This document shows positions 2,936 through 49,727 of a stretch of 64,000 nt of DNA, piece after piece; the first letter of the stretch is position 1; every line of letters starts with the position of its first letter. Source of the DNA: Chloroflexi bacterium bin20 (GTDB taxonomy: Bacteria; Chloroflexota; Anaerolineae; Aggregatilineales; Phototrophicaceae); NCBI GenBank assembly GCA_002238485.1, contig MPMG01000002.1:178689-242688 (forward strand), given 5' to 3'. The translations under genes and the position numbers were made by a program. Under the pieces are notes generated by a model. That model was not told where the DNA came from. It did not search any database and saw nothing but the letters and a program-made list of their open reading frames with translations.

Positions 2936-3068
2936 ACCCCACCCCTAGCCCCTCCCCGACAGGTCAGAGAGGGGAGCCACGCGGGCGATTCACCACCTCG
3001 CCCCTACACATCGAAACTTGCACGCTATCTTCCCCCCATCCCGATGGGGGGACCGAGGGGGTTCAGTT
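2936..3068. repeat. Cluster of palindromic repeats before the MFS gene
   Basis: Contains CCCCTCCCCGACAGGTCAGAG, a CCTCGCCCCTAC end, and CTTCCCCCCATCCCGATGGGGGG followed by ACCGAGGGGG. The last is a strong hairpin of the window-wide family. The frame of the next gene stays open through it, but this part is repeat and not protein. Confidence 0.65.
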
Positions 3069-10741: not shown

Positions 10742-10778
10742 TATCCCCCTCGGTCCCCCCATATCAATGGGGGGAAGC
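10742..10778. terminator. Palindromic repeat forming a hairpin after the binding-protein gene
   Basis: CCCCTCGGTC is followed by CCCCCCAT-ATCA-ATGGGGGG, an eight-base-pair G/C stem. It is a member of the dispersed repeat family and may also act as a terminator. No U-run follows. A second imperfect stem lies at 10786-10796 and 10809-10819. Confidence 0.5.
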
Positions 10779-10829
10779 AAAGCATGGCGGATTCGCTGTA
10801 GAAAGTAGGCGAGTCCGCCAGCCATTCCA

Positions 10830-10884: not shown

Positions 10885-10957
10885 TGTAGGGGCGAGCCAT
10901 TGGGTCGCCCGTTTTGTGGATGCGCGTCAGACGGGCGATACTTGTATCGCCCCTACA
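10885..10957. repeat. 73-bp inverted-repeat element with TGTAGGGGCGA ends
   Basis: TGTAGGGGCGA at 10885-10895 is exactly complementary to TCGCCCCTACA at 10947-10957. Inside, TCGCCCGT and ACGGGCGA form a second nested stem. Single ends of the same type (TCGCCCCTAC) occur at about 664, 2999 and 26986. Confidence 0.65.
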
Positions 10958-15795: not shown

Positions 15796-15959
15796 GGAAA
15801 ATCTCCTTCGCTAGGATGATTGCAAGGCAATTTGAGCGAGACGCCCATCCCCTACTCTACCTTTGCCAGCGAGTTTTTTCAAATGCGGGCTATGCTTCTA
15901 TGCCTCTCGGACCGAATAGCCACAGGCGCCGTGATGCTGTCCGACAGGTCCGCCGCGTG

Positions 15960-15965
15960 TACAAT
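15960..15965 (+). promoter_or_regulatory. Possible -10 element (TACAAT) for the P450 gene
   Basis: TACAAT ends six bases before the ATG at 15972, so a transcript initiated from it would be leaderless or nearly so. A weak -35 (CTGTCC) lies 17 bases upstream. The same hexamer is seen at 20252, 35299 and 49782 ahead of other genes. Confidence 0.35.
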
Positions 15966-15971
15966 ACCTTC

Positions 15972-17216
15972 ATGATGGAACCTCGATCCTCTTGTCCCCA
16001 CCACGACCTCGGCGACAGCTTCGACCCGCTCGACCTGCGCGATCCCTTCCCCGTGCTCGCCCAGGCCCAGCAGCAGCAGCCGGTCTTCTACAGCCCCGCC
16101 ATCGACTATTGGGTGGTCACGCGCCACGCCGATATCAAAGCCATCTTCCGCGACCACCACCGCTATAGCGCCGCCAACACCATCACGCCCATCGTGCCCT
16201 TCTCAGACGCGGTGAAGCGGCTGCTCGCGGCTGGCGACTATAGGCCCGAGCCCGTGCTTTCCAACCATGTGCCGCCGGGGCATACCCGCATCCGCAGCTT
16301 GGTCAACCGCCTGTTCACGCCGCGCCGCATGAGCAGCTTCGCGCCCGTCATCGGCCAGATCGCCCGTGATGCTGTGGCGCAGCTGGTCTCGCCACCGGTC
16401 GATATGGTGTCGGCGCTGACATACACCTTTCCCGCGCAGGTGCTCTTCGCCGTGCTTGGCGTGCCAGAAGCCGATGTGCCGCAGGTTAAAGCCTGGGCGG
16501 GCAGCCGCATCAAACTCTATTACGGGCGTCCCAGCGCCGAAGAACAACTGGAAATGACCGCCGACCTGGTGCCATTTTGGCGCTATGTGGTGGCGCTGGT
16601 GGCGGACAAGGCGCAATCGCCTGGCGATGACCTCACCAGCGATCTCATCCGCCTGCGCAATGGCGATGACAACGTGCTGAGCCTCAACGAGATCGCCAGC
16701 TGCATGATCACCCTGCTGGTGGCCGGGCACGAGACGACCACCGCACAGCTGAGCAATGCCCTGTTGCATCTGTTAAACTCCCCTCGGTCCTCGCATTGGC
16801 GAGCGCTGTGCGAAGAGCCGTCGCTCATCCCGCAGGCGCTGGAAGAGATGATGCGCTACGACCCTTCGGTTTGTGCCTGGCGGAGGCTGTCGCTGGCGCC
16901 CAGCAGCATTGGCGGCGTCGATATCCCGGCTGGCGCGAACCTGCTGCTGATGCTGAATGCCGCCAACCGCGACCCCGCGCTCTTCCCCGAGCCTGATGTC
17001 ATCTGCATACGTCGCGACAACCTCAAAGAGCAACTGGCATTTGGCTATGGCATTCATTATTGCGTTGGCGCGCCCCTGGCCCGGCTGGAGATGCGCATCC
17101 TGCTGGAGACCTTGGTGACAAAGCTGCCTTCGCTGCGCCTGGTGGAGGGGCAGGAAGTCAACTACAGTCGCAATATCTCTTTCCGCGGTCCGCTGTCGCT
17201 GTGGGTGCGCTGGTGA
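15972..17216 (+). CDS. Cytochrome P450 monooxygenase
   Basis: 414 residues from the ATG at 15972 (a frame extending to 15816 is not P450-like). The landmarks are all present: I-helix oxygen site AGHETTT, K-helix EMMR (ExxR), and haem loop FGYGIHYCVG with the ligand Cys at about residue 364. It is a soluble bacterial CYP of unknown substrate; no ferredoxin or reductase gene is nearby. Between the I and K helices the protein reads LLNSPRSSHWRAL, where relatives have a shorter LL-xHPxQW loop. The DNA of this loop (16777-16803) matches the dispersed palindromic repeat. The stop overlaps the next start. Confidence 0.92.
   Translation: MMEPRSSCPHHDLGDSFDPLDLRDPFPVLAQAQQQQPVFYSPAIDYWVVTRHADIKAIFRDHHRYSAANTITPIVPFSDAVKRLLAAGDYRPEPVLSNHVPPGHTRIRSLVNRLFTPRRMSSFAPVIGQIARDAVAQLVSPPVDMVSALTYTFPAQVLFAVLGVPEADVPQVKAWAGSRIKLYYGRPSAEEQLEMTADLVPFWRYVVALVADKAQSPGDDLTSDLIRLRNGDDNVLSLNEIASCMITLLVAGHETTTAQLSNALLHLLNSPRSSHWRALCEEPSLIPQALEEMMRYDPSVCAWRRLSLAPSSIGGVDIPAGANLLLMLNAANRDPALFPEPDVICIRRDNLKEQLAFGYGIHYCVGAPLARLEMRILLETLVTKLPSLRLVEGQEVNYSRNISFRGPLSLWVRW
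16777..16803. repeat. Palindromic repeat copy embedded in the P450 coding sequence
   Basis: ACTCCCCTCGGTCC followed by the small palindrome CTCGC-ATTG-GCGAG. The left half matches the intergenic consensus. It adds about two residues to the loop after the I helix and keeps the frame. Confidence 0.5.
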
Positions 17217-18367
17217 GCGCCGATTTCTTCGCCGAGTTCTCGCCCAGCACGTATGACGAGTGGCTGGCTGCCTTGCGCGATTCGCTATCGGGCGCAGACC
17301 CCGAAAGCCTCGTCACAGACACGGCAGAAGGCATCGCCATCCACCCCCTGCCCCATCCCGACGCCTGCCTTCCCCCTGACTCGTCGGGGGGACTGAGGGG
17401 GGTTGAGCTTCCCCCCGGCCCGTCGGGGCTGGCGAGGGGAGTCACCTCGAAGGGAGTCTGGCTGATCGCGCAGGAGATCAACATAGACGAGCCGCGCGCC
17501 TTCAACAGAGCGCTGCTGGATGCGCTGGCGAATGGGCAGACAGCCATTGCCCTGGATGCGGGACCGCGCTTGCAAACGTCCGCCGACCTGGACAGTGCGC
17601 TGGCTGGCGTCGACCTGGCGCTTTATCCTATCTTTGCGGCGGATGCGCAAGGTTTTGACCGGCTGCGTGCCACTCGCAGCGCAGAGGAAATGACGAAATT
17701 GCGTGGCTGCATCGGCTCGCCAAGCGATGATTACGCTGCGCTGGCAGATCGTTTTTCTGTGCTTGGGGCGGTTTCGCCGGCTTTGGGCTGCGTGGGCATC
17801 GGCACAGCAGAGCAGCATGCAAATGGCGCCAACGCCGTGCAAGAACTGGCTTTCGTTTTGGCGGCTGGCGCAGCTATCTTGCGTGGTCTCTTGGGGCGCG
17901 GGCTGGCTGTCGACACGGTTGCATCCAGGCTGCATGTAACGCTGTGCATCGGCGAAGATTTTTTCATGCAGATCGCCAAGTTCCGCGCGGTCAAGTCGCT
18001 TTGGGCGCAGATGACGCGGGCATTCGGCGCAAGCGAATCAGCGCAGACGATCCGCCTGCATGCCCGCAGTGGCGCGCGCAACAAATCGCAGGAGTCCACG
18101 CACAACAATCTGTTGCGATTGACCTGCGAGGCATTGGCCGCGGCGCTGGCTGGCGTCGACAGCATGACACTGGCTGCCTTTGACGCGCCGCAGGAAGACG
18201 ATTTCTCGCGCCGGCTATCGCGCAATATCCAGTTGATCTTGCAGCACGAGGTGCAGCTGACGCGCTATATCGACTCGGCTGGCGGCAGCTGGCATGTCGA
18301 GCGACTTACGGATGAGTTGGCGCGCCGATCGTGGGCGGCTTTCCAACAAATCGAGGGCAAGCGGTAA
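17213..18367 (+). CDS. Methylmalonyl-CoA mutase-like protein, truncated; repeat-encoded insert near the N-terminus
   Basis: 384 residues starting at GTG 17213, which overlaps the P450 stop. The N-terminus (FSPSTYDEWLAAL, then TDTAEGI) and the core (AALADRFSVLGAVSP, GGSWHVERLTDELARRSWAAF) are those of the mutase catalytic barrel, closest to the small-subunit type. It stops at QQIEGKR, where relatives continue, and has no B12-binding domain. No large subunit is in the window. Residues 53-77 are encoded by two tandem palindromic repeats (17369-17443) and are absent from the family. It may be a decaying or repurposed gene. Confidence 0.75.
   Translation: MSADFFAEFSPSTYDEWLAALRDSLSGADPESLVTDTAEGIAIHPLPHPDACLPPDSSGGLRGVELPPGPSGLARGVTSKGVWLIAQEINIDEPRAFNRALLDALANGQTAIALDAGPRLQTSADLDSALAGVDLALYPIFAADAQGFDRLRATRSAEEMTKLRGCIGSPSDDYAALADRFSVLGAVSPALGCVGIGTAEQHANGANAVQELAFVLAAGAAILRGLLGRGLAVDTVASRLHVTLCIGEDFFMQIAKFRAVKSLWAQMTRAFGASESAQTIRLHARSGARNKSQESTHNNLLRLTCEALAAALAGVDSMTLAAFDAPQEDDFSRRLSRNIQLILQHEVQLTRYIDSAGGSWHVERLTDELARRSWAAFQQIEGKR
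17369..17443. repeat. Two tandem palindromic repeats inside the mutase-like gene
   Basis: Unit A (17369-17407) is CTTCCCCC...GTCGGGGGGACTGAGGGGGG and unit B (17408-17443) is CTTCCCCCCGGCCCGTCGGGG...GGCGAGGGGAG. Both match intergenic units such as 3028-3065. Together they add 75 bases, exactly 25 codons, and read through as LPPDSSGGLRGV / ELPPGPSGLARGV. Confidence 0.8.
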
Positions 18368-18658: not shown

Positions 18659-18913
18659 ATGGCGCAATCAGCACGGCAATTTGATAATGAGCCACCTAGA
18701 CAGCCTGTATTGTCGCCTAACGAACAGCGTATCGCCAATGCGGTGGTAGCGGCTCTTAGCCCTAGACTCAATAGCATTGATAATAGGCTGGATAGCATTG
18801 ATAATAGGCTGGATAGCATTGATAAGCGGTTAGATGTCTTGGAGCAAGAGATGCGCGGTGTCAACAAGATATTAGCTGCTGCTGAGCTAATCCCAGATAA
18901 CCCTGACATCTAA
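18659..18913 (+). CDS. Small coiled-coil protein with heptad-length DNA repeats
   Basis: 84 residues with a strong ribosome site (CGGAGGAAACCAGT before ATG). The N-terminal third is polar (ARQFDNEPPRQP), followed by a helical segment and three near-identical heptads (LNSIDNR, LDSIDNR, LDSIDKR) continuing into LDVLEQEM, which would form a parallel coiled coil. No TM segment or known domain. Codon use and base composition differ from the neighbours, and the gene ends against a transposase remnant, so transfer is plausible. Function unknown. Confidence 0.7.
   Translation: MAQSARQFDNEPPRQPVLSPNEQRIANAVVAALSPRLNSIDNRLDSIDNRLDSIDKRLDVLEQEMRGVNKILAAAELIPDNPDI
18767..18829 (+). repeat. Three 21-bp tandem repeats
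   Basis: Three copies of CTGGATAGCATTGATAATAGG with few differences, each encoding exactly one heptad. Copy-number change would lengthen or shorten the coiled coil without changing frame. Confidence 0.9.
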
Positions 18914-49462: not shown

Positions 49463-49692
49463 TGCGCTTGCCAGCGTTCATCTTTGGATACGCCATTCTT
49501 GCCTGGAAGATGCCATGTGGGCAAGCGCTTGTCTTGGAACGCATAGATAAAATACCTATCTTATCGCATATTTTTCCATGATAGTGCCATTTTCTAACTT
49601 GTCAAGCATTTGCTAGAAAGAGGTTGTCTAGTTTCGTGTATGTGGGGCCGTTCCCCATCCTCCGACATGCGTAGAAATCCGCGCGCGCATTG

Positions 49693-49727
49693 CCTCCCTC
49701 CGACTTTTTGGGCGGACTGAGGGGGGC
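49693..49727. repeat. Palindromic G/C-rich repeat
   Basis: CCTCCCTCCGACTTTTTGGG followed by CGGACTGAGGGGGG, a member of the same family as 17369-17407. Confidence 0.6.

Follow-up and report, generated by a model that had tools for sequence, protein, structure and literature searches.

A 38-39-base palindromic repeat of one Anaerolineae genus that probably persists in frame within protein-coding genes

Our analysis of the window (the whole stretch of 64,000 nucleotides) identified two in-frame copies of a short palindromic repeat, here termed family A, within a gene encoding a methylmalonyl-CoA mutase-like protein. Comparison of this and other loci among related genomes suggests, with a probability that we put at about 0.87, that this 38-39-base palindrome multiplies within a single genus of Anaerolineae, and that copies inserted in frame survive in loops, linkers and C-termini, where they would be translated and would subsequently decay.

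The host gene (17213-18367, plus strand) has a GTG start and encodes a 384 amino acid protein (PF01642, E = 1.6e-71) which, judged by its sequence, belongs to the methylmalonyl-CoA mutase family and appears closest to the small subunit. It should be noted that its match to TIGR00642 (mmCoA_mut_beta, E = 1.9e-63) falls under the equivalog cut-off, which is also missed by a fragment of one full-length relative. The GTG start overlaps the stop codon of an upstream cytochrome P450-like gene (15816-17216, plus strand; named from its own sequence, without a profile search), and both the tail of this gene and its junction with the mutase-like gene are kept in three sister species (G007, G015, and G028), where the two genes are also adjacent. 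The small-subunit-like gene of this sub-clade lies away from its usual site beside the large subunit and is now found by the P450-like gene; in the genome holding the window (G000), the large-subunit gene is located about 50 kb away and is not adjacent (C4:247756-248550, listed with 17213-18367 of the window). By the mutase gene, the nearest named genomes are Chloroflexi/Anaerolineae metagenome-assembled genomes (e.g., SB0662_bin_10 and CAR2_bin_3), and other orthologues of the same genus show 43-56% identity. Most of these other orthologues carry a PGQFPFxRG motif in the segment corresponding to the insert, which is missing from the G000 protein; they also contain an additional internal segment (about 12 residues) and extend about 100 residues further at the C-terminus.

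The first repeat unit in this gene (17367-17404, plus strand) reads CLPPDSSGGLRGV and is near the family consensus (scoring 55.8 bits against model R1, with E = 4e-11 in a 16-kb search, filters off), and the second unit (17406-17443, plus strand) reads LPPGPSGLARGV and is degenerate (19.7 bits; E = 0.006, filters off). They are head-to-tail copies of a 38-base palindrome with a 39-base period, equivalent to 13 codons, and both lie in frame. A preliminary description of this DNA had placed two in-frame units at 17369-17443, with sequence and frame as found here, and had likened them to an intergenic repeat at 3028-3065, which indeed belongs to the same family A (3027-3064, plus strand; pattern match and consensus). 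Both units are contained in a mutase segment (17362-17458, plus strand; residues about 50-81) that is hypervariable in alignments and has pLDDT values below 50 in the predicted structure, whereas the greater part of the catalytic-domain core exceeds 70; the insert is predicted to be disordered.

Measured from PLPHPDA to WxIAQE, this segment spans 31 residues in both G000 and G028, 19 in G007, and 18 in G015. No recognizable family A copy was found in the G007 and G015 segments, which have 12-13 fewer residues than that of G000. In the same register, the G028 gene contains a diverged unit 1 copy, a match that is weak when taken alone (13 bits, E = 0.18), and beside it a stretch resembling a different palindrome, family C (L033 1501-2649). 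The flanks of the segment are conserved, and the frame is kept across the length changes of 12-13 codons. The insertion may predate this clade or may reflect separate events in G000 and G028. The earlier idea of a 25-residue insert holds for the repeat DNA alone and fails as a clean addition of 25 codons, given the segment lengths in G015 and G007 and the motif present elsewhere. Likewise, the expectation that orthologues would lack residues 53-77 was only partly right, since PGQFPFxRG was lost at the insert site: the peptide occurs in no orthologue outside the closest clade, and unrelated genomes lack these residues, but in most other same-genus orthologues the motif stands in that place. The mutase gene offers no clean empty site, since the segment has undergone other changes such as the loss of this motif.

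The family A consensus, built from 26 copies, is nGCTTCCCCCCGACTTTTCGGGGGGACTGAGGGGGGTT, with the layout TGCTTCCCCCCGAC-loop-TCGGGGGGACYGAGGGGGGTT and a length of 38-39 bases. The stem comprises 8 pairs; some copies pair AT-AT in place of GA-TC, and the stem is kept in variants with CCCCCCAT...ATGGGGGG. The exact pattern gave 40 matches in the 3.66-Mb genome (22 contigs) compared with 0 for the reversed control, and a covariance model detected at least 150 copies in G000 (counts of 150 are lower bounds). Family A was present in 21 of 21 same-genus genomes tested, G000 included, in 1 to at least 150 copies each (G000, G003, and G007 each had at least 150, the close relative G015 had 6, and the remaining genomes had 1 to 56), and was absent from all 13 genomes tested from the order's other genera. 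Within one close clade, copy number thus drops from at least 150 (G000, G003, and G007) to 6 (G015), and this gap provides a natural contrast for finding the driver of family A. Tandem copies are most commonly spaced by 39 bases, or 13 codons. Stop codons are nearly absent from four of the unit's six frames (of 150 copies, 141 are stop-free in +2, 147 in -0, 150 in -1, and 149 in -2). We do not claim a stop-free design special to the unit, as such GC-rich sequence is mostly open by composition alone.

When the 110 family A sites of G000 were classified with a simple codon-usage gene caller, 92 were intergenic, 9 fell within genes, and 9 at the edges of genes; coding sequence makes up 88% of the window. 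Intragenic copies are about 10 times rarer than random insertion predicts, as expected if most of them are removed or avoided. About nine sites lie in frame inside protein genes of G000, so that the genome-wide search for in-frame insertions suggested earlier revealed recurrence well beyond the mutase. Host genes with coding signal on both sides of the repeat were found, in addition to the C-terminal and PMT_2 cases described below. In the mutase, an aldehyde dehydrogenase (ALDH), and an AddB-like nuclease, the copies are in sense orientation, share one common frame, and encode LPPDSSGGLRGV-type peptides. A sulfatase and an S-Me-THD protein have antisense copies that read TPLGPPDESGG and TPLGPPEESGG, respectively, and the one in a BNR/sortilin protein reads NPPQSPHQDGG. 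In a PMT_2 glycosyltransferase (L119 1902-3995, G000 C16), the family A peptide is followed by three in-frame tandem GGGKARADSVNRSRM-like repeats. Four tandem copies, 37 bases apart and in successive reverse repeat frames, make up the C-terminal tail of an acyl-CoA-dehydrogenase-like gene (L147 11019-12788, G000 C22), and a UvrD-like helicase carries one copy close to its C-terminus. The presence of in-frame copies in the ALDH, nuclease, sulfatase, S-Me-THD, BNR/sortilin, PMT_2, and acyl-CoA-dehydrogenase-like genes supports the early suggestion that the repeat can be tolerated in proteins.

Related species differ in the content of these sites. The sulfatase site harbors a copy in G000, G007, G002, and G004, whereas G003, G015, and most other species have none there, and the nuclease site has a copy in G000 and none in G007, G003, G005, and G011. 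At the S-Me-THD site, the copy is antisense in G000 and sense in G013 and G014, and the site is empty in G007, G003, and others. The BNR site contains family A in G000, an unrelated palindrome (family B, CCCTCCCTCTCTCTGGGGGAGGGG...) in G003, G007, and G008, and family C (GGGCGACCCAATGGCTCGCCCCTAC) in G006, G011, and G012, and is empty in G013, G001, G009, and G004. The pattern of family B had no match in 0.54 Mb of G000 DNA, where this family may be absent or diverged, and family C was also observed in frame in coding genes of relatives (G028 L033 1501-2649; BNR loci L218, L220, and L221). Eleven species carry a repeat at one position of the ALDH linker, in all states of decay, and nine species carry none; the G000 linker contains two units, exactly 39 bases more. 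Fitch parsimony, on an ALDH and sulfatase tree with several weakly supported branches, gave minimum changes of 6 for ALDH, 3 for the sulfatase, 3 for S-Me-THD, 4 for BNR, and 1 for the nuclease.

Two pairs of inserts shared by distant species are identical over 36 of 36 bases (G000 and G004 in the sulfatase; G006 and G012 in ALDH), whereas flanking third-codon-position identity is only 0.57-0.65, so that the insert DNA is younger, or more homogenized, than the host gene. The opposite orientations and the three families found at one site show that insertion has, in some cases at least, occurred repeatedly, and it is from such comparisons between species that we infer movement of family A. No target-site duplication was evident by eye in alignments of filled and empty sites, whose loop flanks are diverged. 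Across this Chloroflexota genus, more than 20 species display empty, fresh, decayed, tandem, opposite-orientation, and other-family stages, a series that allows asking by sequence whether the insertions are recurrent and targeted or ancient and preserved, and how protein sequence arises from non-coding repeats.

Taking these comparisons into account, we propose that family A, mobile or otherwise, multiplies in genomes of one Chloroflexota (Anaerolineae) genus, with most copies kept between genes. Most copies arriving in coding sites would be purged, selection acting as a filter, and those surviving within genes would be the ones that keep the frame and occupy a loop, linker, or C-terminal site able to tolerate about 10-30 extra residues. 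In the mutase, two head-to-tail copies would fill a hypervariable N-terminal loop, at the place held by PGQFPFxRG in most other orthologues, and would be translated as a flexible stretch of 25 residues, later decaying by substitutions and small in-frame indels. Translation is suggested by the open frames, by retention of the reading frame, and by purifying selection to either side of the insert, and the peptides are probably tolerated. It is a more tentative proposition, and one that we regard as rather doubtful at present, that unrelated palindrome families have inserted repeatedly and in frame at the same permissive codons across one genus, without a recognizable RAYT transposase. If this were true, protein loops would be standing targets for palindromes, and new peptide segments would keep arising.

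A different account of the mutase is that the gene is a decaying pseudogene or pseudo-subunit, which would tolerate the repeat only because it no longer matters. The loss of PGQFPFxRG, of the internal segment of about 12 residues, and of about 100 C-terminal residues relative to same-genus orthologues would fit such decay, as would the distance of about 50 kb to the large-subunit gene. However, the dN/dS of the gene is 0.21-0.28 in four species, similar to that of full-length orthologues (0.28), pN is also well below pS in the 47 codons upstream of the insert, the frame is open in 4 of 4 species, and indels are multiples of three. By these measures the gene is under purifying selection, and the dN/dS together with the low pN upstream of the insert rules out a simple pseudogene, the possibility that the preliminary description had itself raised; other hosts (ALDH, sulfatase, and nuclease), identified with Pfam, are full-length, and we consider the broader account quite unlikely as well. 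The subunit may have lost its catalytic role and kept a structural one. The likelihood that a proline/glycine-rich loop resembles the repeat by chance is negligible: although this DNA has a high GC content and the mutase locus folds as RNA just slightly better than its shuffled versions do (z = -1.3), such an origin is contradicted by the E-value of unit 1 (4e-11) and the 36/36 identity of inserts across species, and the 40 pattern matches against 0 in the reversed control rule it out. Given that same folding energy, we claim neither a special RNA hairpin nor an RNA function at this locus.

The shared sites could instead descend from old insertions in the ancestor of the genus that were homogenized by ectopic gene conversion and lost in many species. 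This is possible, although we hold it to be unlikely: the sulfatase inserts of G000, G002, and G004 do have matching boundaries and agree at 33-36 of 36 bases, and the ALDH inserts of 11 species do occupy a single position in all decay states, but the opposite orientations at S-Me-THD and the three families at BNR cannot stem from one ancestral insertion, and many precise losses would be required to restore tidy loops that lack the repeat. We find it improbable that the in-frame peptide is selected for a function of its own, as a flexible linker or in interaction or regulation. A PPPDSSGGPRGVS-like peptide is kept in the ALDH linker of several species, yet in other genes the sequence varies with orientation and frame, it decays in G003, G007, and G015, empty sites are common, and the mutase insert is disordered by prediction.

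In-frame palindromes in proteins are already known. Rickettsia palindromic elements (RPEs) and Wolbachia protein-coding palindromes are dispersed and lie in frame in unrelated metabolic genes (PMC3767692, PMC10969869), RPEs are reported to be about 100-150 bases long (PMC3767692, PMC10969869), and a different RPE group can occupy the same or a nearby place in an orthologue (PMC3767692). Family A is also a dispersed palindrome, in frame in unrelated genes that stay open, but its units of 38-39 bases are found in Chloroflexota, mostly between genes and often as 39-base tandems, and the resemblance to RPEs noted earlier concerns behavior and not size. Intragenic REPs of the GTAG and CGTC super-families are 20-40-base palindromes, mostly intergenic, with some copies in ORFs; REP dimers encode 20-30 residues, DNA-repair genes are among their hosts, different REPs occur at about the same recB site in X. 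campestris and X. oryzae, and GTAG repeats have been reported in Chloroflexi (PMC3733652). Family A falls within this size range and is likewise mostly intergenic, but its consensus from 26 copies has no GTAG or CGTC end tag. A search with PF01797 (the Y1 transposase, or RAYT, domain), the sole transposase profile used, found no match in G000, G003, and G007 and weak or partial matches in G005, G008, G010, G011, and G012; its lack in the three genomes richest in family A leads us to reject a RAYT-driven REP. MITEs are small non-autonomous repeats able to fuse in frame with host genes (PMC10969869), as family A does, but family A is much shorter than typical MITEs. Family A acts like RPEs and intragenic REPs and is neither of them by size, end tag, or RAYT partner. 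No description of it was found in the non-subscription papers searched. In-frame coding palindromes are best known in Rickettsia and Wolbachia, and intragenic REPs in several other, mostly proteobacterial, genomes; the record that family A has left across its genus, with sites filled, empty, reversed, or replaced, is unusually rich.

Other copies and repeats were observed across the window, which had no Rfam match at gathering thresholds. Intergenic family A copies are present at 10742-10779 (minus strand; pattern match and consensus) and 55431-55468 (minus strand; 50.5 bits), and a diverged copy is found at 49686-49726 (plus strand; repeat search, family D11). The family C palindrome (GGGCGATTCACCACCTCGCCCCTAC), the second repeat family that is in frame in relatives too, is located at 2983-3007 (plus strand) and, by sequence match, at 10886-10910 (minus strand). 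The same sequence of about 65 bases (TGTGTTCTATGTTCTATCTCGTGATTAGCTGCGC...CCCGCAGATTGCGC) precedes several intergenic family A copies (the set of L004, L005, L007, L016, L021, and L026), and another set of family A loci has CCTGTCGACAGAATCCGCGCATGCTTTGC in common; family A may form a single component within larger composite repeats. Two gene-length tandem copies, 71-84% identical and 782 bases apart, lie at 55744-57236. Finally, 21-base tandem repeats at 18763-18835 are found in a small ORF reading NRLDSID, and these repeats probably form a coiled coil.
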